Source: Comamonadaceae bacterium (GTDB lineage: Bacteria > Pseudomonadota > Gammaproteobacteria > Burkholderiales > Burkholderiaceae_C). Taken from it: 44,512 nucleotides of DNA. Positions 2,173 to 20,851 of this stretch are shown in pieces (the stretch's first letter is position 1; each line of letters begins with the position of its first letter). Both the position numbers and the translations under genes were made by a program. The notes beneath the pieces are model-generated. The model had not been told where the DNA came from. It worked only from the letters and a program-made list of their open reading frames with translations, and searched no databases. The stretch is taken from assembly GCA_013823485.1 (NCBI GenBank), contig PNMF01000009.1, positions 1 to 44,512 on the forward strand. Direction: 5' to 3'.

Positions 2173-3077
2173 CGCATTCACGCCGCCGCATGACCCTGGC
2201 CGCCGTCGCCAGCGTGGCCACCCTGGCCCTGCCGCTGTGGTCGCCCGCCGCCCTGGCCCAGGGCGCACCGCTGAAGCTGGGCGTGGGCATGTTCCAGCCC
2301 GACCGCGAAAAGAACGACGCCACCTACCGCCCGCTGGCCCAGCACCTGGCCGCGCGCCTGGGCCGCCCGGTGGAGCTGCGCACCGTCGACAGCTGGGAAG
2401 GGCTGGCCAAGAGCCTGGCCAACGGCGAGACCGACATCGGCCTCATGGGGCCGTGGGGCTATGTGCTGGCCAACCACTTCTCCGACGCCCAGGTGGTCTC
2501 CACCATCCTGTACCAGGGCAAGCCCGAGTACTTCGCCATGATCGTGACCCACCCGGACTCCGGCCTCAACAGCGTGCAGGACCTCACCGGACCCAAGGGC
2601 AAGGGCCGCACCTTCGCCTTCGGCGACAAGGGCTCCACCTCGGGTTACCTGATCCCGCTGCACTTCTTCATGCAGCAGGGCATCGACCCGGAAAAGCATT
2701 TTTCGCGCGTGCTCTACACCAAGCACCAGGCCATCCAGACCCAGGTGACCGCAGGCCAGCTCGACGCCGGGGCCGACTACAACCGCAACCGTACCGCCAT
2801 GATCGACGCCGGCCTGATCCGGGCCGAGCGCAGCAAGATCATCTGGCAGTCCGACCCGCTGCCCAACGATGCGGTGGCGGTGAGCGCGGCCCTGTTCAAG
2901 GACAAGGCCTTCGTCAAGCGCCTGCAGGACGCCCTGCTGGAAGTCGGCCCGCTGCTCAAGACGCAGCCCCAGCTGCTGCCGGCCAACTACACCGGCTTCG
3001 TCAACACCGAGAACGGCTTCTACAAGCCGATCCGGGACGCTGGTCTGGCCACCGGCAAGCTCACGCCCCGGCAGTGA
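2169..3077 (+). CDS. PhnD-like phosphate/phosphonate (putative selenate)-type ABC transporter substrate-binding protein
   Basis: Signal peptide; LKLGVGMFQPDREKNDATYRPLAQHLAARLGRPVELRTVDSWEGLAKSLANGETDIGLMGPWGYVLA; GSTSGYLIPLHFF. Confidence 0.85.
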   Translation: MTHSRRRMTLAAVASVATLALPLWSPAALAQGAPLKLGVGMFQPDREKNDATYRPLAQHLAARLGRPVELRTVDSWEGLAKSLANGETDIGLMGPWGYVLANHFSDAQVVSTILYQGKPEYFAMIVTHPDSGLNSVQDLTGPKGKGRTFAFGDKGSTSGYLIPLHFFMQQGIDPEKHFSRVLYTKHQAIQTQVTAGQLDAGADYNRNRTAMIDAGLIRAERSKIIWQSDPLPNDAVAVSAALFKDKAFVKRLQDALLEVGPLLKTQPQLLPANYTGFVNTENGFYKPIRDAGLATGKLTPRQ

Positions 3078-3976
3078 GCGCCGCCGCCGCTCCGGAACCG
3101 ACCACCCCGGACCGCCGCCTGCTGCGGGGGCGGTCCGGGTTTTTTGCGCTGGTGCTGGTCTATGCCGGGCTGGTGCTGGCCTGTGGCCTGACGCTGGTGG
3201 CCTCGGGCGAACTCTCGTGGGGTCGGGAGCCCTGGAGCAACCTGCTGAAGACCCTGTCGGAATTCGGCCAGCCCAGTTTCCTGGACCTGTGGTTCGGCCC
3301 CGAGCGGCTGGAGTACCGCAGCGACGACGGCACGCTGCTGCGGGTCGAGAACCGCCAGCAGGTCGAGGCCGACTTCCTGGCCGGTCTGGCGCGCGCCACC
3401 TGGACCACGTTCCAGATCGCCACGCTGGGCTCCCTGCTGGCGGCGGTGCTGGCGCTGCCGCTGGGCCTGCTGGCGGCCCGCAACCTGCACGCGCCCCGGC
3501 CGCTGGCCTGGGCCGCATCGGCGGTGCTCGATGTCTCCCGCGCCATCCACACGCTGGTCTTCGGTCTGGTGCTGGTGGGCATCGTGGGGCTGGGGCCGAC
3601 CGCAGGCATCCTGGCCATCGCGCTGCATTCCATGGGCACCTACGGCAAGCTCTATGCCGAGAGCATCGAGACCCTGGACATGGGCGCCGTCGATGCGGTG
3701 CGCGCCACCGGCGCCTCGCCCTCGCAGGTGTTCTTCAGCGCGGTCTGGCCCTCGGTGCTGCCGCAGTTCGTGAGCAACCACCTGTATGTCTGGGAGTTCA
3801 ACATCCGCGACTCCACCATCCTCGGGCTGATCGGCGCCGGCGGCCTGGGGCTGCTGATTTCGGAAGCGGTCAGCCTGTTCCAGTGGGGGCGGCTGGCCAC
3901 CATCCTGCTGGTGGTCATTGCGCTGGTCGTGCTGTTCGACACCGTGTCGCGCCGCATCCGCCAGGCCCTGCTCTGA
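3074..3976 (+). CDS. PhnE-like ABC transporter permease
   Basis: GTG start in a GTGA overlap; multiple TM segments; LDVSRAIHTLVFGLVLVGIVGLGPTAGILAIALHSMGTYGKLYAESIE and IRDSTILGLIGAGGLG signatures. Confidence 0.85.
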   Translation: MSAAAAPEPTTPDRRLLRGRSGFFALVLVYAGLVLACGLTLVASGELSWGREPWSNLLKTLSEFGQPSFLDLWFGPERLEYRSDDGTLLRVENRQQVEADFLAGLARATWTTFQIATLGSLLAAVLALPLGLLAARNLHAPRPLAWAASAVLDVSRAIHTLVFGLVLVGIVGLGPTAGILAIALHSMGTYGKLYAESIETLDMGAVDAVRATGASPSQVFFSAVWPSVLPQFVSNHLYVWEFNIRDSTILGLIGAGGLGLLISEAVSLFQWGRLATILLVVIALVVLFDTVSRRIRQALL

Positions 3977-4803
3977 TGGACGCCCGCTTGCAACCCGTCA
4001 TCCGCATCCGCGACTTGCGCGTCGAGGTCGGCGGGCGCCTGCTGCTGGAGCTGCCCGCGCTGTCGGTGCAGGCCGGCGAGCGGGTGGCGCTGGTGGGCCC
4101 GAACGGGGCCGGCAAGAGCACCCTGCTCAAGGTGCTGGGCGGGTTCATGCAGGTGACCCGGGGCGAGGTGACCGTGCTCGACCGTGGTCTGGCCGGCGGC
4201 GCAGCGGCCCCGACCCGGCAGCAGTTGCGCCGGTTGCGGGCCGACATCGGACAGGTCATGCAGGGCCTGCACCTGGTGCCCCGGCTCAGTGCGCTGGACA
4301 ACGCGGTGCTGGGTGCGCTGGCGCGTCCCGGGGCCATGCCGCTCTGGCGTTCCTGGCTGCGCTGGTACCCGCCGCCGCTGCGCGAGGAAGCCGCCGCCGC
4401 CCTGGCCGAGCTGGGCCTGGCGCACCGCCGGCACGCCCGCGCCGACCAGCTCTCCGGCGGTGAACGCCAGAAGGTCAGCCTGGCCCGGCTGCGGCTGCAA
4501 CAGCCCCGACTGATCCTGGCCGACGAACCCACCTCGGCGCTCGACCCCTCGGCCACCCGGCAGGTCTGCCAGGCCCTGCTCTCGGTGGCCCGCCAGGCCA
4601 CGCTGGTCACGGTGGTCCACGACCCGGCGCTGCTGCCGGTGCTGGCCGACCGCGTCATCGGCCTGCAGGGCGGGCGGGTGGTGTTCGATGTGGAACACCG
4701 CCACCTCACGCCCGATCTCATGCACCGGCTGTATGCCGGCGAAGCCGACCGCTCTGCCGCCCCGACCCCCACCGAACCGCCGTCGAAAGCCCTGTACCCA
4801 TGA
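3976..4803 (+). CDS. PhnC-like ABC transporter ATP-binding protein
   Basis: Walker A GPNGAGKS, signature LSGGERQKVSLAR, Walker B LILADEPTSALDP, H-loop VVHD; TGATG overlap with upstream gene. Confidence 0.9.
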   Translation: MDARLQPVIRIRDLRVEVGGRLLLELPALSVQAGERVALVGPNGAGKSTLLKVLGGFMQVTRGEVTVLDRGLAGGAAAPTRQQLRRLRADIGQVMQGLHLVPRLSALDNAVLGALARPGAMPLWRSWLRWYPPPLREEAAAALAELGLAHRRHARADQLSGGERQKVSLARLRLQQPRLILADEPTSALDPSATRQVCQALLSVARQATLVTVVHDPALLPVLADRVIGLQGGRVVFDVEHRHLTPDLMHRLYAGEADRSAAPTPTEPPSKALYP

Positions 4804-6749: not shown

Positions 6750-8780
6750 ATGAACCTCGGCAGCATGACCAGCGGCGATGCAGCGGACTTTGCGACGCTG
6801 GTGGACGGTGTTTTCCTGCGTTATCAGGGGCGGCCGGACGGCCACTTCGATCTGGTCTACATCAGCGAGGGTTGTGTGGGCATCTGGGGCCTGGATGCGG
6901 CGGCGATCCTGGCCGATGAGAAGCGCATCTGGTACATGGCCGAGCCCGACACCCGCCAGCGCCTGACCCGGTCGGTGGCCGAGGCGGTGGCCCAGGGCAC
7001 CGTGTGGAGCGAGGAGTGGCTGATCCGCGATGTGCGGGGCCAGACCCGCTGGCTCAAGGGCAAGGGCCGGCCGCTGCCCGGCGAGAACGGCTGCACCCAC
7101 TGGGTGGCGGTGGTGACCGACATCACCGAGAGCAGCCGGGTGCGGCAGATCCAGGACAGCACCCGCACCAACTTCCGCATGCTGGTCGACCGGCTGGAAG
7201 ACATTGCGGTGCACCGCTTCGGCGCCGACATGCGGGTGAGCTACTGGAACCGCGCTTCCGAGCGCATGTACGGCTACACCGAGGAAGAGGCGCTGGGCCG
7301 CGACGTGCTGGAGCTGCTGATTCCCCCCGAGCGGCGCGCGCACTGGCGCCGGGTGTTCGGCGACATCCTGCTGTCGCACCAGCGATCGACCCCGTTCGAG
7401 GGCTGGCTGCACCGCAAGGACGGCTCGCCGGTGGAGGTCCGCGGCACGGTGGTGCTGCTGGAATACCCGGACCGGCCGGGCGAGTTCGTCTGCCTCGACT
7501 ACGACATGACCCCGATCCGCCGCCAGGAAGACGAGCGCGCCTCGCTGGAAGCGCAGCTGCGCCAGTCGCAGAAGCTCGAAGCCCTGGGCACGCTGGCCGG
7601 AGGCGTGGCGCACGACTTCAACAACATCCTGGCGGCCATTCTGGGCAACACCCGGCTGGCCCTGATGGACGCGCAGGACCAGCCGGAGGTGCTGCAGAGC
7701 CTGGAGGAGATCCTGCGGGCCGCCCACCGCGCCAAGGATCTGGTGCAGCGCATCCTGTCGTTCAGCCGCCGCACGCCCACCATCCGCCGCATGGTGTCGA
7801 TGCAGTCGGTGGTGGCCGAATCGGTCGAGCTGCTGCGGGCCACCGCGCCCAAGAGTCTGGCGCTGGAGGTGGGCTTCCACCCCGACACGCCCGCGGTGCT
7901 GGCCGATCCGTCGCAGCTGCACCAGGTGTTCATGAACCTGTGCACCAACGCCCTGCAGGCCATCAGCTCGCCGGAGCAGGGGCGCATGCGCATCAGCGTC
8001 ACGCCCCACCCGGGCATTCCCCAGCCCCTGATCGGCCCGGGGGCGCTCAGCATCGTCACCGATCTGCAGGGCTGGCCGGAGGTGAACGTGTGCGTGCGGG
8101 TGGAGGACAACGGCAGCGGCATGGACGCCGTCACCATGGCCCGCCTGTTCGAGCCCTTCTTCACCACCAAGCCCATGGGCGAGGGCACCGGGCTGGGGCT
8201 GGCGGTGGTGCACGGCATCCTGCGCGACCACCAGGCCGCCATCACGGTGCAGAGCAAGCCGGGCAGCGGTTCGGTGTTCTCGGTCATCCTGCGGGCGGCC
8301 GATCCGGAGCTGGCCGCCGCCGCCGACAACGACACCGCGCCGGCGGTCGAGCTGGTGGAGGAAGGCGTGCCGCCGATCCTGCTGGATGCCCAGGGGCAGC
8401 TCTGCCACATCCTGTATGTGGACGACGACGAGCTGATCAACGATCTGGTGCGGCGCATGCTGCAGCGCGCCGGCTTTCCGGCCACGCTGTACACCCGCTC
8501 GCACGAGGCGCTGGAGGATGTGCGGACCGGCAAGGTGCACTACGACCTGGCGGTGGTCGACTACATGATGCCGGGGCTCAACGGGCTGGAGCTGGCGCGC
8601 GAGCTGCGCCGCCTGCACCCGCAGCGGCCGGTGGCGATCACCTCGGGGCTGATCTCCGAGGAGCTGCGCCGCGACGCACCGCAGGCCGGCATTGCCGAAC
8701 TGATCCACAAGCCCAACACCGGCACCGAGCTGCTCCAGGCCATTTCGCGGCTGGCCCGCCGGGTGGTGGACCAGGGCTGA
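6750..8780 (+). CDS. Soluble PAS-PAS hybrid histidine kinase with C-terminal receiver domain
   Basis: LVYISEGCVGIWGL (PAS), TEEEALGRDVLELL (PAS), LEALGTLAGGVAHDFNNILAAILG (HisKA), VEDNGSGMD...LFEPFFTTKPMGEGTGLGLAVVHG (HATPase), ILYVDDDE...LAVVDYMMPGLNG...HKPN (REC). Start inferred; alternatives 6717 or 6765. Confidence 0.9.
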   Translation: MNLGSMTSGDAADFATLVDGVFLRYQGRPDGHFDLVYISEGCVGIWGLDAAAILADEKRIWYMAEPDTRQRLTRSVAEAVAQGTVWSEEWLIRDVRGQTRWLKGKGRPLPGENGCTHWVAVVTDITESSRVRQIQDSTRTNFRMLVDRLEDIAVHRFGADMRVSYWNRASERMYGYTEEEALGRDVLELLIPPERRAHWRRVFGDILLSHQRSTPFEGWLHRKDGSPVEVRGTVVLLEYPDRPGEFVCLDYDMTPIRRQEDERASLEAQLRQSQKLEALGTLAGGVAHDFNNILAAILGNTRLALMDAQDQPEVLQSLEEILRAAHRAKDLVQRILSFSRRTPTIRRMVSMQSVVAESVELLRATAPKSLALEVGFHPDTPAVLADPSQLHQVFMNLCTNALQAISSPEQGRMRISVTPHPGIPQPLIGPGALSIVTDLQGWPEVNVCVRVEDNGSGMDAVTMARLFEPFFTTKPMGEGTGLGLAVVHGILRDHQAAITVQSKPGSGSVFSVILRAADPELAAAADNDTAPAVELVEEGVPPILLDAQGQLCHILYVDDDELINDLVRRMLQRAGFPATLYTRSHEALEDVRTGKVHYDLAVVDYMMPGLNGLELARELRRLHPQRPVAITSGLISEELRRDAPQAGIAELIHKPNTGTELLQAISRLARRVVDQG

Positions 8781-8794
8781 ACAGGCGCCGGCCT

Positions 8795-11302
8795 TCAGCC
8801 GCCCGAACGCAGCAGCAGCGCCGGGCTCAGCCGCCACTGCGCGGTCAGGTAGCGGCCGCCCAGCAGCAGGCTGAAGGCACACACCCCGACCACGGTGGCC
8901 GCGCCGGTCCAGTACAGGCCGGCCGGGGTCATGTCCAGCTGCCACTTCAGCAGCACCGTGGCCCACAGGCTGCCGGCCAGCCAGGCCAGGCCGGCGGTGA
9001 TGGCCGCCAGCACCAGGTATTCCCACCACAGCACCTGGCGCAGCAGCGAATGGCGCGCGCCCAGTGCGTGCATCACCGTGGCCTCGAACACCTGCCGGCT
9101 GCGGCTGGCCGCCACCACGCTGGCCAGCACCAGCAGGCTGGCCGCCAGGCAGACGCCGGCCACCACCGCCAGCCCGCTGCCGGCACGCTCCAGCAGGCGC
9201 CGGCTTTCCTGCAGCAGGGCTTCGGTGCGGGCGGTGGCGATGTTGGGCGCCACCGCGGCCAGCCGGTCCTGGGCCTGCAGGGCCTGCCCGGGCGGCATCC
9301 AGGCCGCACCCACATGGCGGGTGATGAAGGGGTCGAGCACGCCGTCGCTGAAGATCGCTTCCAGCCACAGCCGCGACTGCAGCCGGCGCTGGCTGTAGAT
9401 GGCGCTGAGGGTGACGTCCACCGGGCTGCCCATGATCTCGAAACGCAGCCGGTCGCCCACCTGCAGGCCCAGGCCGTCGGCCTCGCGGTCCTCCATGGCC
9501 ACCAGCGCCTCACCCCGGTGGTCGTCGGGCCACCAGGCGCCGCGGTCGATCAGCACATCGTCGAAGTTGCCGCTGCGGTCGCTCAGCTTGTGTTCGTCGA
9601 GCGACTCGCGCGCGCGGTCGGCGTCGCCGCCCTCGCGCAGGGCCTGGCCATTCACGGCCACCAGCCGGCCCAGCACCAGCGGGGCGGTGCGCACCGTGGT
9701 GTCTGGCTCGGTCTGCAGGGTCTGGCGCAGCAGGTCGATCTGTCCGGTCTGCACGTCATACATCACCAGCGCCGGGGCCTGTTCGGGCACGGTGTCCTGC
9801 AGGGTGCGCAGCAAGGTGAACACCACCAGCGTGCAGGCCACCATCAGGGTCAGGGCCGAGCCCATGGACAGCAGGGCGGTCCGCAACGGCGACTGCGGGT
9901 GCTGCAGGCCGGCCAGGGCCAGCTGCAGCGGCAGCGGCCCGTGGTGCTGCCAGCGGGCCGCTGCCCGGCGCAGCAGGCGGGTCAGGCCGTCGAGCAGCAG
10001 CAACAGCAGGCCCATGGTCAGCACGAAGGCCAGGCCGAACCGGGGGTCCGGCAGGCTCAGCACCAGCAGCACCAGCAGGAGCAGGCCGGCCCCGGCGGTC
10101 AGCCAGCGGGCCCGCGCCGGCGTCATCAGGGCGGCCGCGTCGGCGCCACGGAACAGCACCGCCGGCGACACCGACAGGGCCCGGCCCAGCGCCGGCAGCG
10201 AGAAGGTGAGGGCGGTCAGCACGCCGAACAGCAGCGCCAGCAAGGCCGGCTGCCACAGGCCCTGCACCAGCAGCCGCACCGGCGCGCGCTCGGCGGCCAG
10301 TTGCGCCACGCCCGCCGCCACGCCGATGCCCAGCAGCACCCCGACCAGGCTGGCCAGCAGGGCCAGCAGCCCGATCTGCAGCAGCACGAAGGCGGCCAGC
10401 CGGCCATTGCGCAGGCCGACGGCGCGCAGGGTCGCCAGGCTCACCAGGCGGCCCTGCAGCCAGGTCTGCACGCTGTTGAAGACCCCAAGTCCGCCGATGA
10501 ACAGGGCGGCAAAACCGATCAGCAGCAGCCCCGACCCGATCTGGCCGAGCACCTCGGTCATGCGGTCGCTGCGCTCGTCGAAGCTGCGCACCTCGGCGTC
10601 GATGCCGGGGTGGGCGGCGATGAAGGCATCGCGCCAGGCGGCGGCCGAGGGGGCACTGCCCGGCGCCATGCGGACCCGGTGCAGGTGGTCGACCCGGCTC
10701 AGCGGCTGCACCAGCCCGGTGGCCTGCAGCGCGGCGTCGGACAGCAGCACCGGGGCGGCACCCCAGTCGGCGCGCAAGCTGCGGTCGGGCTGGCGCTGCA
10801 CCACCGCACCGACCCGCAGCTCGGCATCGCCCACCGCCACCCGGTCACCCGGCTGCAGGCCCAGCCGCAGTGCGAGAGCGGCGTCCAGCGCCACGCCGTG
10901 CAGGCCGTCCCGCAGGGCCAGCGCGTCGGTCAGCGGCATGGCCGGCGCCAGCTCCACCGCCCCGTACAGGGGGTAGGCGGCATCGGTGCTCATGAGTTCG
11001 ACCAGCTGGGCGCGGCCATCGGCGGTGCGCAGCATGGTGCGCAGTTCCAGTACCCGCGACACCGTGCCGCGCGCCGCCATCCAGTCCAGCGCGGCCGTGG
11101 GCAGCGGCGCGGTGGCGGCCACTTCCACGTCGCCACCGAACAGCAGCCGGGCATCGTCGCGCAGGCCGTCGGCCACCTGCCGGTAAAGCCCGCCGCCGGC
11201 CGCCACCAGCGACACCCCCAGCACCAGGCAGGCGGCCAGCACCCACAGCTGGCGACCACCGGCGCGCAGGTCGCGCCAGGCCAGCTCAAGCAGGAAGGGC
11301 AT
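8795..11302 (-). CDS. ABC transporter permease, FtsX-like (YbbP-type)
   Basis: MPFLLELAWRDLRAGGRQLWVLAACLVLGVSLVAAGGGLYRQV; two FtsX-like TM blocks (GVFNSVQTWLQGRLVSLATLRAVGLR; VFEATVMHALGARHSLLRQVLWWEYL). Confidence 0.85.
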   Translation of the reverse strand: MPFLLELAWRDLRAGGRQLWVLAACLVLGVSLVAAGGGLYRQVADGLRDDARLLFGGDVEVAATAPLPTAALDWMAARGTVSRVLELRTMLRTADGRAQLVELMSTDAAYPLYGAVELAPAMPLTDALALRDGLHGVALDAALALRLGLQPGDRVAVGDAELRVGAVVQRQPDRSLRADWGAAPVLLSDAALQATGLVQPLSRVDHLHRVRMAPGSAPSAAAWRDAFIAAHPGIDAEVRSFDERSDRMTEVLGQIGSGLLLIGFAALFIGGLGVFNSVQTWLQGRLVSLATLRAVGLRNGRLAAFVLLQIGLLALLASLVGVLLGIGVAAGVAQLAAERAPVRLLVQGLWQPALLALLFGVLTALTFSLPALGRALSVSPAVLFRGADAAALMTPARARWLTAGAGLLLLVLLVLSLPDPRFGLAFVLTMGLLLLLLDGLTRLLRRAAARWQHHGPLPLQLALAGLQHPQSPLRTALLSMGSALTLMVACTLVVFTLLRTLQDTVPEQAPALVMYDVQTGQIDLLRQTLQTEPDTTVRTAPLVLGRLVAVNGQALREGGDADRARESLDEHKLSDRSGNFDDVLIDRGAWWPDDHRGEALVAMEDREADGLGLQVGDRLRFEIMGSPVDVTLSAIYSQRRLQSRLWLEAIFSDGVLDPFITRHVGAAWMPPGQALQAQDRLAAVAPNIATARTEALLQESRRLLERAGSGLAVVAGVCLAASLLVLASVVAASRSRQVFEATVMHALGARHSLLRQVLWWEYLVLAAITAGLAWLAGSLWATVLLKWQLDMTPAGLYWTGAATVVGVCAFSLLLGGRYLTAQWRLSPALLLRSGG

Positions 11303-11996
11303 GGGCCGACTCCGGGGCGGTTTCTCGAAGCTGGCCTTCGTGCAGGCGCAGCACGCGGTCGCAGCGGGCCGCAAAGTCCATGTCGTGCGTCACCAGCACC
11401 AGGGTGGTGCCCAGTTCGCGGTTCAGGCCGAACAGCAGTTCGCGCACGGCGCCGGCGGTGTGGTCGTCCAGGTTGCCGGTGGGCTCGTCGGCCAGCAGCA
11501 GGCGCGGCCGGTGCACCAGCGCCCGGGCGATCGCCACCCGCTGCTGCTCGCCACCGGAGAGCTGGCTGGGCCGGTGGTGCAGCCGGTCGCCCAGGCCGAC
11601 CCGGCGCAGCATGTCGGCGGCGGCGTCCCGGGCACCGCTGGCACCCGCCATGCGCAGGGGCAGGGCGGCGTTGTCCAGTGCGCTCAGGCTGGGCAGCAGG
11701 TGAAAGCTCTGGAACACGATGCCGATGCGTTCGCGCCGCAGGTCGGCCAGGCCGTCGTTGTCCAGGGTGGCGAGGTCGACGCCGTCGATGCAGATGCGGC
11801 CGGCCGCCGGGCGCTCCAGGCCACTGAGCAGCAGCATCAGCGAGGTCTTGCCGGAACCGGACGGGCCGGCGATGGCCACCCGGGTGCCGGCTTCGATGCG
11901 CAGGTCGACCTCGCGCAGGACGGTGACCTGGCGCGGTCCGACGGCGTAGTGCAGGGAGAGGCCGGTGGCCTCGATCAGGGGAACGTTGGGGGACAT
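11286..11996 (-). CDS. ABC transporter ATP-binding protein (YbbA/LolD-type)
   Basis: Walker A GPSGSGKTS, signature LSGGEQQRVAIARAL, Walker B LLLADEPTGNLD, H-loop VTHD; overlaps the permease start by 17 nt. Confidence 0.9.
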   Translation of the reverse strand: MSPNVPLIEATGLSLHYAVGPRQVTVLREVDLRIEAGTRVAIAGPSGSGKTSLMLLLSGLERPAAGRICIDGVDLATLDNDGLADLRRERIGIVFQSFHLLPSLSALDNAALPLRMAGASGARDAAADMLRRVGLGDRLHHRPSQLSGGEQQRVAIARALVHRPRLLLADEPTGNLDDHTAGAVRELLFGLNRELGTTLVLVTHDMDFAARCDRVLRLHEGQLRETAPESAHALPA

Positions 11997-12317: not shown

Positions 12318-12932
12318 GTGAAGAAAGCCCTGCTCCTGAAGACCGCTGCTGCCCTGGCCCTGGCCACCCCGATGGTGTCCATGGCGGAATCCCAGCTGGC
12401 GGCCCAAGGTGCCAACAGCACGGCATCGGCCCGGCTGAACATCCGGGTGGTGATCCCGCGCGTGCTGTTCCTGGGTGTCGGTGCCGGCGCCGGTGCACTC
12501 AACGATCCGCTGGCCGCCAACGGCACCTCTTCCACCGTGACGTTCGACTACACCAACAACCCGCAGGCGGTTGGCGGCGGTGCCACCAACCCGGCGGCTT
12601 CGGTCACCGGTGCCGTGGTGCCGGTCCGTGTGGTGGGCAACAACGGCACGGTGAGCCTGGTGGCCGCCACCACGGGCGCCCTGACCAACGCCACCAGCGA
12701 CACCATTCCGTGGAGCGAGATCTCGGCCACCTCCAGCGCCAACACGCTGCCGAGCCCGGTGATCCCGGCCACCGGCAGCGGCACCGCCGTGCCGCTCACG
12801 CCCAACGTCGGCACCAGGGTGACCCGTCTGGCCGCCGACTGGACCTTCAGCTACGCCAACTCGGCCGTGGTCGCGCCGGGTACCTACGGCACCACCAACG
12901 GTCAGATCACGTACACCGCTTCCATGCCCTGA
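12318..12932 (+). CDS. Exported fibre/fimbrial subunit-like protein (subunit 1)
   Basis: GTG start with AAGGAAA upstream; signal peptide MKKALLLKTAAALALATPMVSMA; low-complexity Ala/Thr/Val/Gly-rich beta-type sequence; paralogous to the 12953 product. Confidence 0.65.
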   Translation: MKKALLLKTAAALALATPMVSMAESQLAAQGANSTASARLNIRVVIPRVLFLGVGAGAGALNDPLAANGTSSTVTFDYTNNPQAVGGGATNPAASVTGAVVPVRVVGNNGTVSLVAATTGALTNATSDTIPWSEISATSSANTLPSPVIPATGSGTAVPLTPNVGTRVTRLAADWTFSYANSAVVAPGTYGTTNGQITYTASMP

Positions 12933-12952
12933 GCATCCGGGGTCTGGCTGTC

Positions 12953-13588
12953 ATGACAAACGTGGGGGGCCTGCGCAGCAGGCTGGCGGTGCATGGCCGT
13001 GCGCTGGCGCTGGCCGGCTGCTGGCTGGCGTTGCCGGTCACCGCGGCGGCCTGGAGCCTGCAGATCAACGGTGCATCCCCACGCGTGTTTCTGCACGTCG
13101 GTACCGGCACGGCCGACGGCAACAACAACACCGTCGACCGGGTCACCGCCAACCTCTCGACGGCCCAGCTGCTGTCCGGGGTGCCGCAGGCCATGACCAA
13201 CAGCGGCGGACAGTCGCGCAGCCTCTCGGGTGACAACTTCGCCACCTGCCCCACGCCGTCCAGCCAGGTGCTCATCGGCGCGTCCTACCGCCGCAACGGC
13301 AACTCGCAGCAGCAGGCCCGCCTGAGCGTGACGGCGCCGGCCAACCTGGTGAGCACGGCCGGCGACACCATTCCGGTTTCCGAGATCAGCTGGACCGTGT
13401 CGGCCCCGGGCAGCCCGGTGCCCGGCATCATCCCGGCGGGCACGTTCGTGCCCGGGCAGCAGCCGCTGGCCAATGTGCCGCCCAACACCTTCATCGAGAA
13501 CTGCCACAGCTTCCGGTATGCCAACTCGGCGATCCGGGCGGCAGGCACCTATGACGGCACCGTCACCTACACCTTGAGCGCACCATGA
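12953..13588 (+). CDS. Exported fibre/fimbrial subunit-like protein (subunit 2)
   Basis: Signal-like N-terminus; shares RVFLHVGTG, GDTIPVSEIS, PGIIPAG and FRYANSAIRAAGTYDGTVTYTLSAP with the upstream ORF. Confidence 0.6.
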   Translation: MTNVGGLRSRLAVHGRALALAGCWLALPVTAAAWSLQINGASPRVFLHVGTGTADGNNNTVDRVTANLSTAQLLSGVPQAMTNSGGQSRSLSGDNFATCPTPSSQVLIGASYRRNGNSQQQARLSVTAPANLVSTAGDTIPVSEISWTVSAPGSPVPGIIPAGTFVPGQQPLANVPPNTFIENCHSFRYANSAIRAAGTYDGTVTYTLSAP

Positions 13589-14034
13589 AGCGATGGTCCC
13601 TTCCGCTGGTGCTGGCGGCCCTGGCGGTCGTTGCCCACGCCGCTCCGGTCCGGCTGGACGATTCCCTGACCCACACCGTTCCGCCCAATGTGCAGATGCA
13701 GTGGCGCATGCTGCCGCCCTCGGCCGGTGCCACCGGTTCCATGGAAGCCTGGGTGCGGGTGAACGTGCGCCTGGACACGGCCCCGCATGCGGGTCGGACC
13801 GGTCGGGTCTACATGGTGCTGGCCCAGGACAGCACCTCGCTGGTGGAGGCCAGCTGGACCTCGCAAGGCCGCCTGCTGGCCGGCCGTGTGGTCTCGGGTG
13901 AGCGCACGCTGGTCTACAGCGGAACCCTGCCGGCGGCCCTCGCCGATCAGCTGGCCCTGCGCCTGCGCGCCTCGCCCGACTGGGACCGCCAGAACCGCCG
14001 ACTGAACTTCCACTTCGAACTCGAGACCCCCTGA
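13585..14034 (+). CDS. Small exported protein of the fibre cluster, unknown function
   Basis: ATGA overlap with upstream gene; signal peptide MKRWSLPLVLAALAVVAHA; GRTGRVYMVLAQ...GRLLAGRVVSGERTLVYSG. Confidence 0.6.
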   Translation: MKRWSLPLVLAALAVVAHAAPVRLDDSLTHTVPPNVQMQWRMLPPSAGATGSMEAWVRVNVRLDTAPHAGRTGRVYMVLAQDSTSLVEASWTSQGRLLAGRVVSGERTLVYSGTLPAALADQLALRLRASPDWDRQNRRLNFHFELETP

Positions 14035-14834
14035 TGCCCCAGCGGACCGTCGTTTCCTGTTGCCTGGCGCTGTTCGGGGTTCTGGCTGCTCCCGTGGTGC
14101 AGGCCCAGGGTTTTTCCGCCTTCGTCACCCCGCCGCGCTTCGAGCTGCAGGTGCAGCCGGGGGAACGCTTGCGCCAGGTGCTGGAGATCCAGCACGCAGG
14201 TGGTCAGACCGGGCGTTTCCGTGTCTACACCAACGACTGGCGCTTCCGCCCGGACCAGACGGTGGAGTTTTCCGATGCGTTGAGCCCCGGCAGCTGCCGG
14301 CCCTGGGTGGCGGTCGAGCGGCGGGAGCTTTCGATCGAGCCCGGCGCGCGTTTTCGTTACCGGTTCGAGATCACCGTGCCGCCCGGCACCCCGCCGGGTG
14401 AATGCCGTTTTGCCTTGATGGTCGAAGGCGCGGATGCCGCGCAGGTGGAAGGCACGCTGAACTTCCCGGTGGGCGGCCGCATTGCCGTCATCGTGTATGC
14501 CGCCATCGGCGGCGCCGCGCCGCGCCTGTCGGCGGAGCCGGCCGGCGTGCAGGCCTTCAACGGCCAGCAGCTGCCCCGGCTGACGGTGCGCAACGCCGGC
14601 AATGCCCACGGCCGCCTTCAGGGCTTCGTCAACGGGCGCGATGCCGACGGCAAGCGCATCGAACTGGCACCGGCCGACACGCCCATCCTGCCTGGCGAAA
14701 CCCGGCAGGTGGCCTTGTTGCCGATGCTCGAGGAGGGGGCCGCCCCCATCACCATCCGCTACCCGCTGCAGGTGCAGGGCCAGCTCGAATCGGGCAGCGA
14801 ACGCCTGCCGCTCGATCTGCGTTTCGCCCCATGA
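14034..14834 (+). CDS. PapD-like periplasmic chaperone
   Basis: Signal peptide; FVTPPRFELQVQPGERLRQVLEIQHAGGQTGRFRVYTNDWRF...RRELSIEPGARFRYRFEITVPPGTPPGECRFALMVEG...LTVRNAGNAHGRLQGF, consistent with two Ig-like chaperone domains; 1-nt overlap with upstream stop. Confidence 0.7.
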   Translation: MPQRTVVSCCLALFGVLAAPVVQAQGFSAFVTPPRFELQVQPGERLRQVLEIQHAGGQTGRFRVYTNDWRFRPDQTVEFSDALSPGSCRPWVAVERRELSIEPGARFRYRFEITVPPGTPPGECRFALMVEGADAAQVEGTLNFPVGGRIAVIVYAAIGGAAPRLSAEPAGVQAFNGQQLPRLTVRNAGNAHGRLQGFVNGRDADGKRIELAPADTPILPGETRQVALLPMLEEGAAPITIRYPLQVQGQLESGSERLPLDLRFAP

Positions 14835-16795
14835 GCCTGCGAGCGTCGGTGCGGGCCGTGGTGGTCCCGGTCCTGGGGCTCGCCTGCCTGCTGAACGCGG
14901 GCGCGGCCCTGGCGGAGACCCTGGCCTATGTCGACCGCGAGATCGAGGGCCTGGCGCCGGAGCCGGTGCTGGCCGAGCGGGACGAGGTCTACAACCCCGA
15001 CGGCTGGCCGAGGTTCCTGCGCGTGGACACCAAGGTCGGCACCCAGTCGCTCGACCCCGACCGCAAGACCCGGCTGGGCTACAGCCTGTTCGGCCTGATC
15101 GAGACCCCGAACCACGGCATCCTGTCGGTCGACGGCAGCATCACCCCCGGGGCCGGCCTGTCCACCCTGACGCTGCGTCAGCGCGATCTGCCCATGGACG
15201 GCGGCTGGCTGGTGAGCAACGAACTGGGTGTGATCGAGCCACCGACGCCCACCATCCTGAGTCTGCCGTCCCGGGTCTTCGTCCCGTCGCCGGCCATCCG
15301 GGGTGCCAGCACCGACTGGCGCCGCCCCGACAACCGCTTCCAGCTCATGGCCAGCAGCGGACAGCCCGGCTTTCTGGATGTGCTGCCGGCCGAGGGCTTC
15401 TCCCGCCTGCCGGGCACCCGGACCCGGGTGGGTGGGCAATGGCGGCTGGGGCCGCCGCCGGTTGATCCGCTGAGCCTGCGCCTGCCGGGTCTGAGTCTGG
15501 CCTTCAAGGCCGAGGAGGCGCGGGGTGTCAGCCAGGGCGGCAATTTCGGCCTGAGCGGTCGGCTGGTGGATGCCGGCAGCCAGCTGGCCGCCGTTCGCCA
15601 CGAGGCCGGAAAGCGCCGCATCCAGGGCCAGTGGCTGCAGAGCCGCAGCAGCGCGGGCCAGGCCCAGGGTCTCTGGGTGGACGCCGAACTCGACGACGGC
15701 CCCTGGCGCCACGCGGCCGGTGCTTACCGCCTGGACCCCGGTCTGGCCTGGGCCGAGACGCCGGTGGCCAGCAATCTGCAGGGGGTTTACGCCCGCTCGG
15801 CATGGCGCTCGCGACAGGTGAGCGTGGATGGATCGCTGGATCTGCTGGGCAACATCACCGGCAACAGCAACCGGGGCTACTTCGTCACCAGCAACGCGCG
15901 CTGGCGCCTGTCGTCCACCGACAGCCTGGGGGCCGGTGCTGCACTGCGCGACCTGAACGGCCAGGACTGGAGCCACTACCTCGACTGGCGCAGCCGCAAC
16001 CGCTGGGGGCCGGCCGGTGCACGGCTGGAAGTGGCCGGCGGCGACAACCAGGCGGCCCGCCAGCAGATCACCTACGACCAGGAATGGCCGGTGCCCCTGG
16101 GCTGGCAATTCGGCAGCAGCCTCGGGCTGGGTCGGCAGGACGTGAACGACGGCACGACCACCACCGGCGAACGGTTCTGGACGCTGGCGCTGAGCGGCAG
16201 TGCACCGCTCACCCGCTTCTCCAGCGCGCGCGGCAACCTGCAGACCGAACGCAGCTCCTCGGGCCAGGAGCGCCACTCGCTCAACCTCGGCGGCAGCTGG
16301 CGCCTCTCGACCCGCTGGAGCCTGGAGGGCTACTACAACCGCAACATCGGCCGCAGCCGCCAGGTGCTGGTGCTCGACCCGCTGGCGCCCCCGCCCGACC
16401 CGCTCACCACCGTGGCCGACCGCTCCTTCTTCGTGCTGCTGCGTTACGAGACCACCGCCGGCAGCCGCGATGTGCCACTGGGTGGCAAGCCCAACGAAGG
16501 CGGCGGCACGGTGCGCGGCACGGTGTTCTTCGACGCCAACCGCAGTGGCGTGCAGGAGGCCAGCGAGCCAGGTGTGCCCGGTGCAACCGTGTTCCTGGAC
16601 AACCGGTACTCGGTACGCACCGACGATCAGGGGCGCTTTGAATTCCCGTTTGTCGGGCCGGGTGCCAGAGCGGTCACGGTGCGCAACGACACCCTGCCGC
16701 TGCCCTGGACGGTGGTCGATGACGGCCAGATCCGGTTCGATCTGCGGGTCCGCGAGACCACCAACCTGAGCTTTCCGGTCCAGCGCAGCGACTGA
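14831..16795 (+). CDS. Predicted outer-membrane beta-barrel protein with C-terminal SdrD_B/carboxypeptidase-regulatory-like domain; occupies the usher position
   Basis: ATGA overlap with chaperone; signal peptide; long run of alternating barrel-type segments (e.g. RHSLNLGGSWRLSTRWSLEGYYNRNIG); C-terminal GTVFFDANRSGVQEASEPGVPGATVFLDNRYSVRTDDQGRFEFPFVGPG. No obvious PapC/FimD N-terminal motif. Confidence 0.65.
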   Translation: MSLRASVRAVVVPVLGLACLLNAGAALAETLAYVDREIEGLAPEPVLAERDEVYNPDGWPRFLRVDTKVGTQSLDPDRKTRLGYSLFGLIETPNHGILSVDGSITPGAGLSTLTLRQRDLPMDGGWLVSNELGVIEPPTPTILSLPSRVFVPSPAIRGASTDWRRPDNRFQLMASSGQPGFLDVLPAEGFSRLPGTRTRVGGQWRLGPPPVDPLSLRLPGLSLAFKAEEARGVSQGGNFGLSGRLVDAGSQLAAVRHEAGKRRIQGQWLQSRSSAGQAQGLWVDAELDDGPWRHAAGAYRLDPGLAWAETPVASNLQGVYARSAWRSRQVSVDGSLDLLGNITGNSNRGYFVTSNARWRLSSTDSLGAGAALRDLNGQDWSHYLDWRSRNRWGPAGARLEVAGGDNQAARQQITYDQEWPVPLGWQFGSSLGLGRQDVNDGTTTTGERFWTLALSGSAPLTRFSSARGNLQTERSSSGQERHSLNLGGSWRLSTRWSLEGYYNRNIGRSRQVLVLDPLAPPPDPLTTVADRSFFVLLRYETTAGSRDVPLGGKPNEGGGTVRGTVFFDANRSGVQEASEPGVPGATVFLDNRYSVRTDDQGRFEFPFVGPGARAVTVRNDTLPLPWTVVDDGQIRFDLRVRETTNLSFPVQRSD

Positions 16796-16842
16796 CGCGA
16801 TGGGTGGGGTCAAGTCGGCGCCACGGCTGCCGATACTGGTGC

Positions 16843-17319
16843 ATGACCCCCGCTTTCACGCTCCGCCGCTGCTTGACCGCCACCCTGCTGGCCGGCGGTC
16901 TGCTGGCACCGGTACTCGGTCATGCCGAAGCGCGGTGGGCCCCGCCGGGTGGCAGTGCCAGCGCCGGCCTGAACTTCCGGGTCATCATCCCGCCGGTGCT
17001 GCAGGTGCTGGAAAACAGGCCCGCGCCGCGCCTGCAGGCCGAAGGGGCCGGCGCATGGCTGGGCCAGCAGCGGCTGGTGGTGGTGTCCAACCTGCGGCAG
17101 GGTTTCTGTGCCCACCTGCGGGGCAGCGTCGGCACCGACACCGCCGGCTGGACCCTGCGGGCGCTGCCGTCGACCGGCGTGCTCACCGAGCGGGTGGCGG
17201 ATGGCTGGCGGGTCTGCACCCTGCGCGCCGGGCGCCACCAGCTGGAGCTGGAGCACCGTTTTCAGACCGGTGGCGTCGAGCCGGTCTGGCCGGTGTCCAC
17301 CGACATCACCGCACTCTGA
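16843..17319 (+). CDS. Exported subunit-like protein (subunit 3)
   Basis: Signal-like MTPAFTLRRCLTATLLAGGLLAPVLGHA; SAGLNFRVIIPPVLQVLEN resembles SARLNIRVVIPRVLFLGVG of subunit 1. Start inferred. Confidence 0.5.
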   Translation: MTPAFTLRRCLTATLLAGGLLAPVLGHAEARWAPPGGSASAGLNFRVIIPPVLQVLENRPAPRLQAEGAGAWLGQQRLVVVSNLRQGFCAHLRGSVGTDTAGWTLRALPSTGVLTERVADGWRVCTLRAGRHQLELEHRFQTGGVEPVWPVSTDITAL

Positions 17320-17324
17320 CCGTT

Positions 17325-18284
17325 TCAGGGCCTGAGCCCGGGGTGCAGCAGGTCGGCCGACGGGGCACTGGCCAGCGTGTTGGCCCGGGTGCCGAAGGCG
17401 GCCTGCGGCAAGGTGGCGGCCAGTTCGGCCGAAGCCGCCTCCAGCAGCGGCAGCACCGAGCGCACCCGAGCGGGGTCCAGATCGGCCCGCACCAGCACCA
17501 GATTCACCGAGCCCACCGTGGCCAGCGGCGCATCGATGCCCGGGTAGGCACCGGGTGCCACCTCCATCGCCCGCAGCAGCGGGTGGCGGCGCAGGATGCC
17601 GCCGATCTGCTCCGGCTGCGGCCCCAGAAATCGGGCACCACCCGGTGCCTGGGCCAGCTGCAGGAAGCCGGGCCAGCCCTCACCGGCGCCCCACAGCGCC
17701 TCGGCCTCGCCCGCCAGCACCCGGCGCGGCGAATCGGCGGCCTGCTCCACGTAGACCGCCTGCAGGTCGCGGTCGATGTCCAGACCGATCCCGTCGAACA
17801 CCTGCCGGCCCAGTGTCACCAGGCCGCTGGACCGCACACCGAACACCACCTTTCTGCCCCTCAGGTCTTCCAGCCGGCGGTGCGGTGAAGCAGCAGGCAC
17901 GGCCAGCATGCCGGGGCTGGGGTACATGGCCCACAGGATGCGCAGGCCGCTGCCCGGCCCCTGGGCCAGCACCTCGCTGGCCACCGTGCCTTGCACCAGC
18001 CCGGCATCGAGCTGGCCGCTGCGCAGCAGGGCCAGGTTCTCGGCCGTGCCGCGTGTGGGCAGGGCCTGCAGCACGGTGCGGCCGGCGCGGGCGTTCACCC
18101 GCAGCGCCAGCTGTTCCCCGTACTGGGCAAACCCGCCGCCGGGGGTGGAGGTGCCCAGGCGGATCGGGTCGGCAGGATCGGTGGGTTGGGCAGGGTCGGC
18201 GGCGCGCAGCCGGGCCGGCAGCAGCAGCGCGGCGGCCACGCCCAGCAGGCCGCGCCGGTTCAGCGGCGGCTGCCCGGTGTTCAT
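17325..18284 (-). CDS. TAXI family TRAP transporter solute-binding protein (no TRAP membrane subunits nearby)
   Basis: Signal peptide; IRLGTSTPGGGFAQYGEQLALRVN...LQALPTRGTAENLALLRSGQLDAGLVQGTVASEVL...GIGLDIDRDLQAVYVEQAADSPRRVLAGEAEALW. Confidence 0.8.
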   Translation of the reverse strand: MNTGQPPLNRRGLLGVAAALLLPARLRAADPAQPTDPADPIRLGTSTPGGGFAQYGEQLALRVNARAGRTVLQALPTRGTAENLALLRSGQLDAGLVQGTVASEVLAQGPGSGLRILWAMYPSPGMLAVPAASPHRRLEDLRGRKVVFGVRSSGLVTLGRQVFDGIGLDIDRDLQAVYVEQAADSPRRVLAGEAEALWGAGEGWPGFLQLAQAPGGARFLGPQPEQIGGILRRHPLLRAMEVAPGAYPGIDAPLATVGSVNLVLVRADLDPARVRSVLPLLEAASAELAATLPQAAFGTRANTLASAPSADLLHPGLRP

Positions 18285-18697
18285 CCCAGCCACCGGGTGT
18301 TGTTCATCAGTTCGGCAAAGAAGGCGCGCAAGGCCTCGGGCCGCATGGCGTAGGGGTCGAACTGCGGCCCGGTGGCGTACTTGAGGAACAGCGCCTGGTT
18401 GTCCGCCACGGTGTTCACCAGCCCCATGGACCAGCCGGTGAACTGCCGGCAGACGATGGGCTCGAAGTCGAGGATGGCCGGATCGGTGTGGCGGCGGTCG
18501 CCCAGGATGCGGTGGTAGAGCTGGTTGACGACGGTGCGGTCGCCTTCCAGGCACTGCAGGAAGATGCCGTTGGACAGGCACAGCGCCCCCGTCACGCCCA
18601 GCGCCTGGTTGTTACGGCGCGAGCGCTCAAGGATGTCCTTGACGTCGAAGGGCCCGAGCTCGCGGGCCCGGCTGGCATAGAGGAGTCGGATCAACAT
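18281..18697 (-). CDS. BLUF domain blue-light photoreceptor protein
   Basis: MLIRLLYASRARELGPFDVKDILERSRRNNQALGVTGALCLSNGIFLQCLEGDRTVVNQLYHRILGDRRHTDPAILDFEPIVCRQFTGWSMG, with the BLUF Tyr, Asn, Gln and Trp/Met positions in expected places. Confidence 0.9.
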   Translation of the reverse strand: MLIRLLYASRARELGPFDVKDILERSRRNNQALGVTGALCLSNGIFLQCLEGDRTVVNQLYHRILGDRRHTDPAILDFEPIVCRQFTGWSMGLVNTVADNQALFLKYATGPQFDPYAMRPEALRAFFAELMNNTRWLG

Positions 18698-18838: not shown

Positions 18839-20851
18839 TTGACCGACCGCGCTGCGCCGCCAGCCCCAGGCGACACCCTCGACATGACCGAGTTCGCCCA
18901 GCTGGTGCGGGGCGCCTTGCTGCGCTACCGGAGCTGGCCCGACGGCACCGCCCGCCTGATGTATGTGAGCGACGGCTGCGAGGCGATCTGGGGCTTCACC
19001 GCCGGGCAGATCCTGGCCGACGAAGCCATCGTCTGGCACTGCACCGAGCCGGCCGACCGGCGCCTGATCCGGGCCTCGTTCCGGGCCGCCGGTGCGTCGC
19101 TGCAGCCCTGGTCGCACGAGTGGCGCATCACCGGCCCGCAGGGCGGCATGCGCTGGCTGCGCGGCCTGGGACGGTGCAAGCCGCAGCCCGACGGCACTCT
19201 GCTCTGGACCGTGCTGATCGACGACGCCACCCACAGCGTGCGCGCCCGCCTGCAGGAAGAAGCCAGCCGCGAGCAGCTGGGCGCCGTGTGCGACTGCCTG
19301 GCCGATGTGGCGGTGCAGCGCTTCGACGACGACATGCGCCTGAATTACTGGAACCAGGGCTCCGAGAAGATGTACGGCTACACGGCGGCCGAGGCGCTGG
19401 GGCGCGACATCATCGATCTGGTGGTGCCGGCGGACCTGCGCCGGGGCACCCGCGAGAAGCTGCAGGCACTGGCCCGGGAAGGGCAGACATCGCTGCCCTA
19501 CAACACCTGGTTCCTGCGCCGCGATGGCCGGCTGGTGGCGGTGCAGGGCACGGCGGTGGTGCTGCGCAACGCCGACGGCCGCCACGAGTTCGTCTGTGTG
19601 GACGTCGATCCCGAGAACCTCTCGCGCGTCGAGGGCGAGCGCGCCAGCCTGGAGGCCCAGCTGCGCGAGTCGCAGAAGCTCGAAGCCCTGGGCACGCTGG
19701 CCGGCGGTGTGGCGCACGACTTCAACAACATCCTGGCGGCCATCCTGGGCAACACCCGGCTGGCGCTGATGGACGCGCAGGGCCAGCCCGAGATCGTGCA
19801 GAGCCTGGAGGAAATCCGCCGCGCCGCGCACCGGGCCAAGGACCTGGTGCAGCGCATCCTGGCCTTCGGTCGGCGGCAGAACACGGTGCGCAAGGTGGTC
19901 GACATGGCCGAGGTGGTGACCGAGGCCGTCACCCTGCTCGGTGCCACCGCGCCGGGCAGCCTGCGCATCGATGTCGACTGCGACCCCGACACCCCCATGG
20001 TGCTGGCCGACGCCACCCAGCTGCAGCAGGTCCTGATCAACCTGTGCACCAACGCGTTCCACGCCATTGCCGGGCTGGAGCGGGGGCGCATCCGGGTGCG
20101 CCTGAGCGCGCACCGGGGCGCGCCGCCAGCCGCGCAGCCGGGCGAGCTGGCCATCGTCACCGACCCGTCGGGCTGGCCCGAAGTCAACGTCTGCCTGAGC
20201 GTCGAGGACAACGGCAGCGGCATGGACGCCGCCACCCTGGCCCGCCTGTTCGAGCCCTTCTTCACCACCAAGCCGGTGGGGCAGGGCACCGGGCTGGGCA
20301 TGCCGGTGGTGCACGGCATCCTGCGCGACCACCAGGGCGCCATCCAGGTGCGCAGCATCCAGGGCACGGGCTCGGTGTTCCGGGTCTACCTGCGCGGCGT
20401 CGAGGGTGCCGAGCGCCAGACCGAGGTCGACTCCTCGCTCATGGGCCTGCACGCGCCGGGCGACCCGGCCGACGGCACCCGCATCCTGTATGTGGACGAC
20501 GACGAGCTGATCGCCCGCATGGTCGGCCGCATGCTGGACCGCGACGGGCTGGTGGCGCACATCTACAGCAGCCCGCAGGTCGCGCTGGACGCGGTGCAGC
20601 GCGGCGCCGTCAGCTACGACCTGGCGGTGCTGGACTTCGCCATGCCCGGCATGAACGGACTCGAACTGGCCCGGGCCCTGCGCCGGCTGCACCCGGATCG
20701 GCCGGTGGCCATCACCTCCGGCTTCATCACCACCGAGCTGAGCCAGAAGGGGCCGGAGGCGGGCGTGGCCGAGCTGATTCCCAAGCCCAACACCGGCACC
20801 GAACTCATCAAGGCGATCCGCCGGCTGGCCGGCCGGACCCGTCAGCCCTGA
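18839..20851 (+). CDS. Soluble PAS-PAS hybrid histidine kinase with receiver domain (paralog of 6750-8780)
   Basis: LMYVSDGCEAIWGF, LEALGTLAGGVAHDFNNILAAILGNTRLALMDAQ, LFEPFFTTKPVGQGTGLGMPVVHG, ILYVDDDE...LAVLDFAMPGMNG...PKPNTGTEL. Start could be TTG 18839 or ATG 18884. Confidence 0.88.
   Translation: MTDRAAPPAPGDTLDMTEFAQLVRGALLRYRSWPDGTARLMYVSDGCEAIWGFTAGQILADEAIVWHCTEPADRRLIRASFRAAGASLQPWSHEWRITGPQGGMRWLRGLGRCKPQPDGTLLWTVLIDDATHSVRARLQEEASREQLGAVCDCLADVAVQRFDDDMRLNYWNQGSEKMYGYTAAEALGRDIIDLVVPADLRRGTREKLQALAREGQTSLPYNTWFLRRDGRLVAVQGTAVVLRNADGRHEFVCVDVDPENLSRVEGERASLEAQLRESQKLEALGTLAGGVAHDFNNILAAILGNTRLALMDAQGQPEIVQSLEEIRRAAHRAKDLVQRILAFGRRQNTVRKVVDMAEVVTEAVTLLGATAPGSLRIDVDCDPDTPMVLADATQLQQVLINLCTNAFHAIAGLERGRIRVRLSAHRGAPPAAQPGELAIVTDPSGWPEVNVCLSVEDNGSGMDAATLARLFEPFFTTKPVGQGTGLGMPVVHGILRDHQGAIQVRSIQGTGSVFRVYLRGVEGAERQTEVDSSLMGLHAPGDPADGTRILYVDDDELIARMVGRMLDRDGLVAHIYSSPQVALDAVQRGAVSYDLAVLDFAMPGMNGLELARALRRLHPDRPVAITSGFITTELSQKGPEAGVAELIPKPNTGTELIKAIRRLAGRTRQP

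Follow-up and report, generated by a model that had tools for sequence, protein, structure and literature searches.

The stretch of DNA analysed here (the window, 44,512 nucleotides (nt)) covers positions 1 to 44,512 of contig PNMF01000009.1 from a Comamonadaceae bacterium (GenBank assembly GCA_013823485.1). It carries six consecutive plus-strand genes, here named S1, S2, SM, CHAP, BARREL and S3 (Table 1), which in our reading encode a divergent machine of the chaperone-usher type for the assembly of surface fibres (probability roughly 0.7). The first-pass annotation had listed these six open reading frames (ORFs), three overlapping junctions and a product of ~654 amino acids (aa) in the usher slot. 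An ORF check and a codon-usage gene caller, which prefers all six ORFs to other frames, confirm the coordinates; the caller places the CHAP start inside the signal peptide. The usher slot encodes exactly 654 aa. Direct reading of the sequence likewise confirms the overlaps, which span four bases between S2 and SM (13585–13588, ATGA), a single base between SM and CHAP (14034, within TGATG), and four bases between CHAP and BARREL (14831–14834, ATGA). Export signals of the cluster proteins were judged by eye.

Table 1. The six genes of the cluster, in window coordinates
Gene	Product	Length (aa)	Position	Strand	Remarks
S1	Candidate major pilin-like subunit	204	12318..12932	+	GTG start; signal peptide by eye
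S2	Pilin-like subunit no. 2, S1 family	211	12953..13588	+	
SM	Small exported protein (by eye), conserved	149	13585..14034	+	
CHAP	PapD-like periplasmic chaperone	266	14034..14834	+	Assigned by profile comparison
BARREL	Predicted outer-membrane beta-barrel, usher slot	654	14831..16795	+	
S3	Pilin-like subunit no. 3	158	16843..17319	+	ATG start; GTG at 16804 is an alternative

Conservation and setting of the gene set

The same genes recur together in many genomes. We scanned 84,980 species genomes with an alignment of CHAP, which yielded 195 encoded relatives, and kept 80 loci; these were chosen by CHAP alone and form the base for all co-occurrence counts. The complete set (at least two S genes, SM, CHAP and BARREL) is present in 65 of the 80 loci, and the exceptions are mostly missed gene calls or second arrangements. 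BARREL adjoins CHAP in 74 loci, SM is found in 74, and at least two S genes lie upstream in 71. An S-like gene lies downstream in 46, and S3 is thus not constant among the relatives. This recurrence, for which the first-pass annotation had proposed a neighbourhood check, is well above chance: the cluster is a true system. Among 201 genomes of the family, a longer BARREL match occurs in 13 other genomes, with the same genes around it in one of two orders: S1-S2-SM-CHAP-BARREL-S3 (type A) and BARREL-S-S-SM-CHAP-S (type B). A search of plasmids gave a match confined to the immunoglobulin (Ig) domain. The hosts are Burkholderiales and Xanthomonadales-type genomes, including Hydrogenophaga, Variovorax, Polaromonas, Lysobacter, Pseudoxanthomonas and Arenimonas. 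Searches of the open-access literature, a scope outside which most subscription papers fall, turned up no account of the system.

Four loci (L053, L064, L090 and L093) carry two copies of the system side by side. The pair either combines the two arrangements or has BARREL on the opposite strand, a pattern suggestive of module duplication and exchange. Solitary CHAP relatives, with no adjoining barrel or subunit, occur in other families of the phylum (L043, L044, L046 and L047), where they sit in a conserved housekeeping neighbourhood.

In the window, the genes on both sides of the cluster run on the minus strand (an ABC transporter pair at 8795–11996 on one flank, and a TAXI-type binding protein with a BLUF protein at 17325–18697 on the other), which sets the six genes apart as one separate unit. 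Scans for promoters and terminators in the cluster detected none. The gap between S1 and S2 measures 20 nt here and contains no hairpin. Relatives such as L059, L060, L054 and L057 have S1-S2 gaps of 100–200 nt that often hold a very stable hairpin; across the relatives, the hairpin has z < -2 in 27 of 65, and a T run follows some of the hairpins. These elements resemble an attenuator behind a major subunit gene, suggesting that S1 is produced in excess. Further out, the BLUF blue-light sensor gene (18281–18697, E 1.3e-28) overlaps the gene for the TAXI-type solute-binding protein (17325–18284). Two hybrid PAS-histidine kinase-receiver proteins, alike in sequence and domain order, flank the cluster at 6750–8780 and 18884–20851 (676 and 655 aa) and may be regulators or chance neighbours.

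The proteins and their remote relatives

Profile comparison points to CHAP as a two-domain PapD-type chaperone. We aligned a profile of 65 CHAP sequences (hhalign) with a PapD-type reference profile made of 13 chaperones from loci recognised by PF00345 or adjoining a PF00577 usher. The two profiles match over 205 columns that span both domains (probability 98.0, E 2.6e-13); the cross-controls, CHAP against ushers and BARREL against chaperones, remain below 0.5% probability. A CHAP hidden Markov model (HMM) that includes no classical chaperone detects the archaic chaperones of two loci, L033 (1e-7) and L092 (6e-4). The first-pass description of CHAP as PapD-like accordingly fails at the Pfam cut-off, where only 3 of 65 CHAP relatives show even a weak PapD_N match, and stands by profile comparison. 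The residue pattern is also what a PapD-type protein might be expected to have. R35 and R149 are invariant, C88 and C124 are invariant in 65/65 sequences, and L142, F144 and V146 alternate just ahead of R149. We take R35, R149 and the L142/F144/V146 run to be the likely counterparts of PapD Arg8, Lys112 and the G1 strand.

BARREL, directly downstream of CHAP, escapes every curated usher model. None of 68 BARREL relatives matches an usher model in Pfam at E 0.1; the only Pfam domains among them are SdrD_B and CarboxypepD_reg, and the corresponding match in the window protein (residues 564–620) is below threshold. The same searches readily recognise the true archaic loci that lie beside the system in L033 and L092, whose ushers reach E 1e-33 and 1e-25 with PF00577 and whose chaperones reach ~1e-9 and 3.5e-12 with PF00345. 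Neither PF00577 nor PF00345 has a match at E 0.001 in the source genome, which is ~89% complete. The first-pass statement that there is no recognisable usher thus describes the curated models correctly (0/68) and goes too far otherwise, since profile and fold comparison show a probable remote usher relative.

In hhalign, the BARREL profile aligns with archaic ushers over 317 collinear columns (probability 97.3, E 1.7e-11) that take in the C-terminal domain and the barrel's second half. The N-terminal half of the barrel gives no alignment with ushers. The C-terminal domain alone matches the usher C-terminal domain (CTD) with a probability of 95.0 and E 4e-8, against 0.1% and E 0.52 for MtrB, an unrelated barrel used as a control. 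Barrel and C-terminal domain together reach E 8.9e-5 against MtrB. The MtrB control thus limits the usher-specific signal to the C-terminal domain and the collinearity, and we have downgraded homology of the barrel part by itself. An usher HMM built without BARRELs detects the BARRELs of L053 (2.7e-7) and L064 (5.2e-5) across residues 380–657. The AlphaFold2 (AF2) model of BARREL (predicted local distance difference test score (pLDDT) 87.2) contains ~26 long strands (61–543), a C-terminal Ig-like domain (555–654) and a mostly unstructured leader. A search of the PDB with this model places FimD/PapC in the top 13 positions (E 2.8e-12 to 7.2e-8), with TonB receptors next (7.5e-8). On this profile and fold evidence, BARREL is probably a remote, reduced usher relative, which makes the cluster a divergent chaperone-usher branch rather than an unrelated system or a new category.

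Known ushers carry an N-terminal domain (NTD, ~100–125 aa) before the barrel, a plug inside it and two CTDs; classical ushers are ~800 aa long. BARREL has one CTD-like domain (~555–654) and lacks the second. Only ~32 residues, mostly modelled with low to moderate confidence, separate the likely signal cleavage site from the first strand, and the model would leave no room for an usher NTD. The longest strand-free stretch within 61–543 is ~22 residues when the model is read as secondary structure only, and no plug domain is apparent in it. The otherwise variable leader contains a strongly conserved YxDRxIE motif (33–39; Y in 59/60 sequences, D in 63/63). Because the NTD of FimD-type ushers binds the chaperone largely via its N-terminal tail (PMC9452303), this motif is by analogy a candidate minimal docking tail.

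Two cousin loci (L045:5794–11406 and L048:6489–11096) pair a CHAP relative with an usher relative of 869–872 aa and also hold one or more pilin-like genes and a small gene, in the same gene order as the cluster. These usher relatives have a longer N-terminal part than BARREL and contain an insert resembling a plug, which aligns with the plug region of archaic ushers, suggesting that BARREL was reduced from a plug-bearing ancestor. They do not match PF00577 at E 0.001 (L045) or 0.1 (L048), and the accompanying subunits and small protein show no sequence relation to S1–S3 or SM. The two loci look like a further, unnamed chaperone-usher-like branch.

Profile comparison assigns S1, S2 and S3 to one family (S1 with S2, E 3.5e-25; S1 with S3, E 1.3e-28); neither these proteins nor SM have a meaningful match in Pfam or NCBIfam. 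All ten best PDB fold matches of the S1 model (AF2, pLDDT 85.8) are chaperone-usher pilins, including the PapG pilin domain, FimG, FimF and CfaB, at weak E-values (0.013–0.043). S1 residues 34, 36, 38, 40, 42, 44 and 46 are conserved and small or hydrophobic and the intervening ones are not (permutation p 0.00075), an alternation that, as far as sequence can indicate, is typical of a donor strand. The N-terminal extension of S1 is unpaired in the model, and the protein terminates right behind its final strand (GTY..NGRVTYTAxMP).

The SCPU search that the first-pass annotation had suggested for the subunits proved negative: PF05229 matches neither the subunits nor 75 relatives of the S1 family in Pfam. 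We dropped the idea that the subunits are SCPU relatives, the profile alignment being limited to a terminal GTY..VT motif. Similarly, 41 SM proteins have nothing meaningful in Pfam, SM has no PDB match, and pilin and chaperone were both dropped as identities for SM, which has no profile similarity to S1, S2, S3, SCPU or PapD-type proteins. A separate observation concerns another contig of the source genome (L208, G000:C19, ~3067–4015), with an ORF for an SCPU-type pilin (PF05229, E 3.8e-6). The frame of this ORF apparently breaks near its end. It lies between an Lrp regulator/indolepyruvate oxidoreductase and an MltA-looking gene. This slot is the place of the six-gene cluster in many relatives; in the source genome, the cluster lies elsewhere.

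Proposed assembly pathway and alternative readings

We propose the following division of labour. In the periplasm, CHAP would lend its G1 strand (L142, F144, V146, R149) to unfinished S1, S2 and S3 and so cap them, and BARREL would provide both the outer-membrane channel and the assembly site. By donor-strand exchange, the N-terminal strand of an incoming subunit (S1 34–46) would take the place of the chaperone strand in the subunit before it, and the growing fibre would leave the cell through BARREL. With neither room for an NTD nor a plug in BARREL, docking and gating may rest on other elements: the leader motif YxDRxIE and the single C-terminal domain may serve docking, and another element, possibly SM, may serve gating. 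The computations establish the gene set, its conservation, the profile-level kinship of CHAP and of the C-terminal domain of BARREL, the strand pattern and the folds as predicted; the fibre, the exchange, the channel and the parts played by YxDRxIE and SM are inferred. We conjecture that the cluster represents a separate branch in which the usher has been cut to a barrel and one CTD, without docking domain or plug, and in which YxDRxIE and SM take over; this more specific proposal is tentative, and we would put it at somewhat below even odds.

Several results count against a chaperone-usher assignment. None of the six proteins scores above the cut-off of a curated usher, PapD or SCPU model; CHAP itself has no PapD-like match in Pfam or NCBIfam and misses the PF00345 cut-off. 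There is also a weak match of the CHAP profile to WxL-interacting proteins from Gram-positive bacteria (EfmWxLIP1, E 0.0012, ~150 residues). Profile comparison of S1, S2 and S3 with SCPU stays below 1%, SM likewise has no sequence relation to SCPU pilins, and the fold matches of S1 have weak E-values. BARREL has ~26 long strands in its model versus 24 in known ushers, its template modelling scores (TM-scores) in the fold search are only ~0.4, and the barrel part, taken by itself, is not usher-specific, since its match to ushers (E 1.2e-5) is nearly equalled by that to the unrelated MtrB (1.6e-4). Curated families thus do not place the cluster among chaperone-usher systems; profile and fold homology do.

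These points lend themselves to other explanations. BARREL may be an unrelated MtrB- or porin-like barrel that acquired an Ig domain of the SdrD/carboxypeptidase-regulatory type, with S1–S3 forming a non-fibrous coat, CHAP acting as a holdase and no usher-type donor-strand exchange. Such an origin would account for a barrel part that fits MtrB almost as well as ushers, for SdrD_B and CarboxypepD_reg (below cut-off in the window BARREL) as the only Pfam findings, and for ~26 predicted strands with TM ~0.4 to FimD and neither NTD nor plug. It sits poorly with the collinear archaic-usher match of barrel plus CTD (1.7e-11 versus 8.9e-5 for MtrB), with FimD/PapC at the head of the fold search, with the position of BARREL directly behind a PapD-related chaperone, as in the plug-bearing cousins, and with the donor-strand features of S1. 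We consider this explanation unlikely. Far less probable is a Gram-negative counterpart of the WxL/WxL-interacting-protein complex, in which CHAP would be a surface or periplasmic scaffold instead of a pilus chaperone. The EfmWxLIP1 match just described and weak matches of a few CHAP relatives to WxLIP_PGBD speak for it, but CHAP matches PapD-type chaperones much more strongly (E 2.6e-13), a PapD chaperone would be expected to have these two arginines and such an alternating G1-like strand, and Pfam finds no WxL domain in any of the six proteins or among members of the S1 and SM families.

We give equally little credence to an ordinary archaic chaperone-usher locus that appears odd merely through missed HMM cut-offs. 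The functional slots are indeed the same and the profile relations do lead, remotely, to archaic parts. However, the same tools give strong PF00577 and PF00345 scores for the true archaic loci in L033 and L092, even profile comparison yields no match of the subunits to SCPU, BARREL offers no space for an NTD and a plug, and no counterpart of SM was found. The Pfam tests with their working controls, together with the lack of PF00577 and PF00345 in the ~89% complete genome, largely refute it. The usher HMM search of the 14831 product and the SCPU search of the subunits had been set beforehand in the first-pass annotation as the tests of this point; since neither PF00577 nor SCPU matches, in the window proteins or in their relatives, the locus is by those tests not an ordinary archaic one. 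The non-canonical surface-fibre or coat assembly system suggested there is supported, and can be refined to a divergent branch of the chaperone-usher systems.

In textbooks, ushers are the standard example of a machine that carries folded fibres across the outer membrane with no use of ATP, and both NTD and plug count as core components. If the divergent-branch reading is true, a conserved usher relative lacking both is a natural deletion experiment on recruitment and gating, and surveys based on PF00577 overlook a whole branch of surface-fibre systems. The hosts are environmental and bioreactor bacteria, where adhesion and biofilm formation matter.

Comparison with known systems

Archaic (sigma) pili such as Csu and CupE share with the cluster tandem single-domain pilin-like subunits, a PapD-type chaperone, an outer-membrane barrel with a conserved CTD and the operon logic, and the relation extends to the profiles of CHAP and of BARREL with its CTD. 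The cluster differs in lacking SCPU subunits and curated family matches and in having the extra conserved SM; BARREL differs in lacking an NTD or plug and in having one CTD. Classical pili (FimCD, PapDC) supply the top fold matches of BARREL (FimD/PapC) and several of those of S1 (FimG, FimF and the PapG pilin domain). Their ushers, at ~800 aa, have an NTD, a plug and two CTDs, whereas members of the BARREL family are 605–745 aa long and comprise a barrel and one CTD. MtrB/PioB barrels are comparably large (26 strands) and show a similarly weak match with the barrel part in profile comparison, but the C-terminal domain of BARREL is not matched (0.1%) and none of the six genes encodes a decahaem partner or any other cytochrome. 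PF11854 (MtrB/PioB) has no match in the source genome and none in the 68 BARRELs.

The alternative (alpha, class 5) pili of the CFA/I type resemble the cluster in that the S1 fold search ranks CfaB among its best matches, and differ in that the 68 BARRELs have no usher-family Pfam match. CfaA-type chaperones are described as carrying a disulfide in the C2-D2' loop and relying on R154 in place of the N-terminal arginine (PMC4133393); in contrast, CHAP retains the invariant N-terminal R35, and its C88 and C124 lie in the first domain. CFA/I, with its chaperone CfaA, pilin CfaB and usher CfaC, forms a branch with hardly any sequence in common with the other chaperone-usher systems (PMC4133393). 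This divergence provides a precedent for a chaperone-usher branch with near-unrelated sequences.

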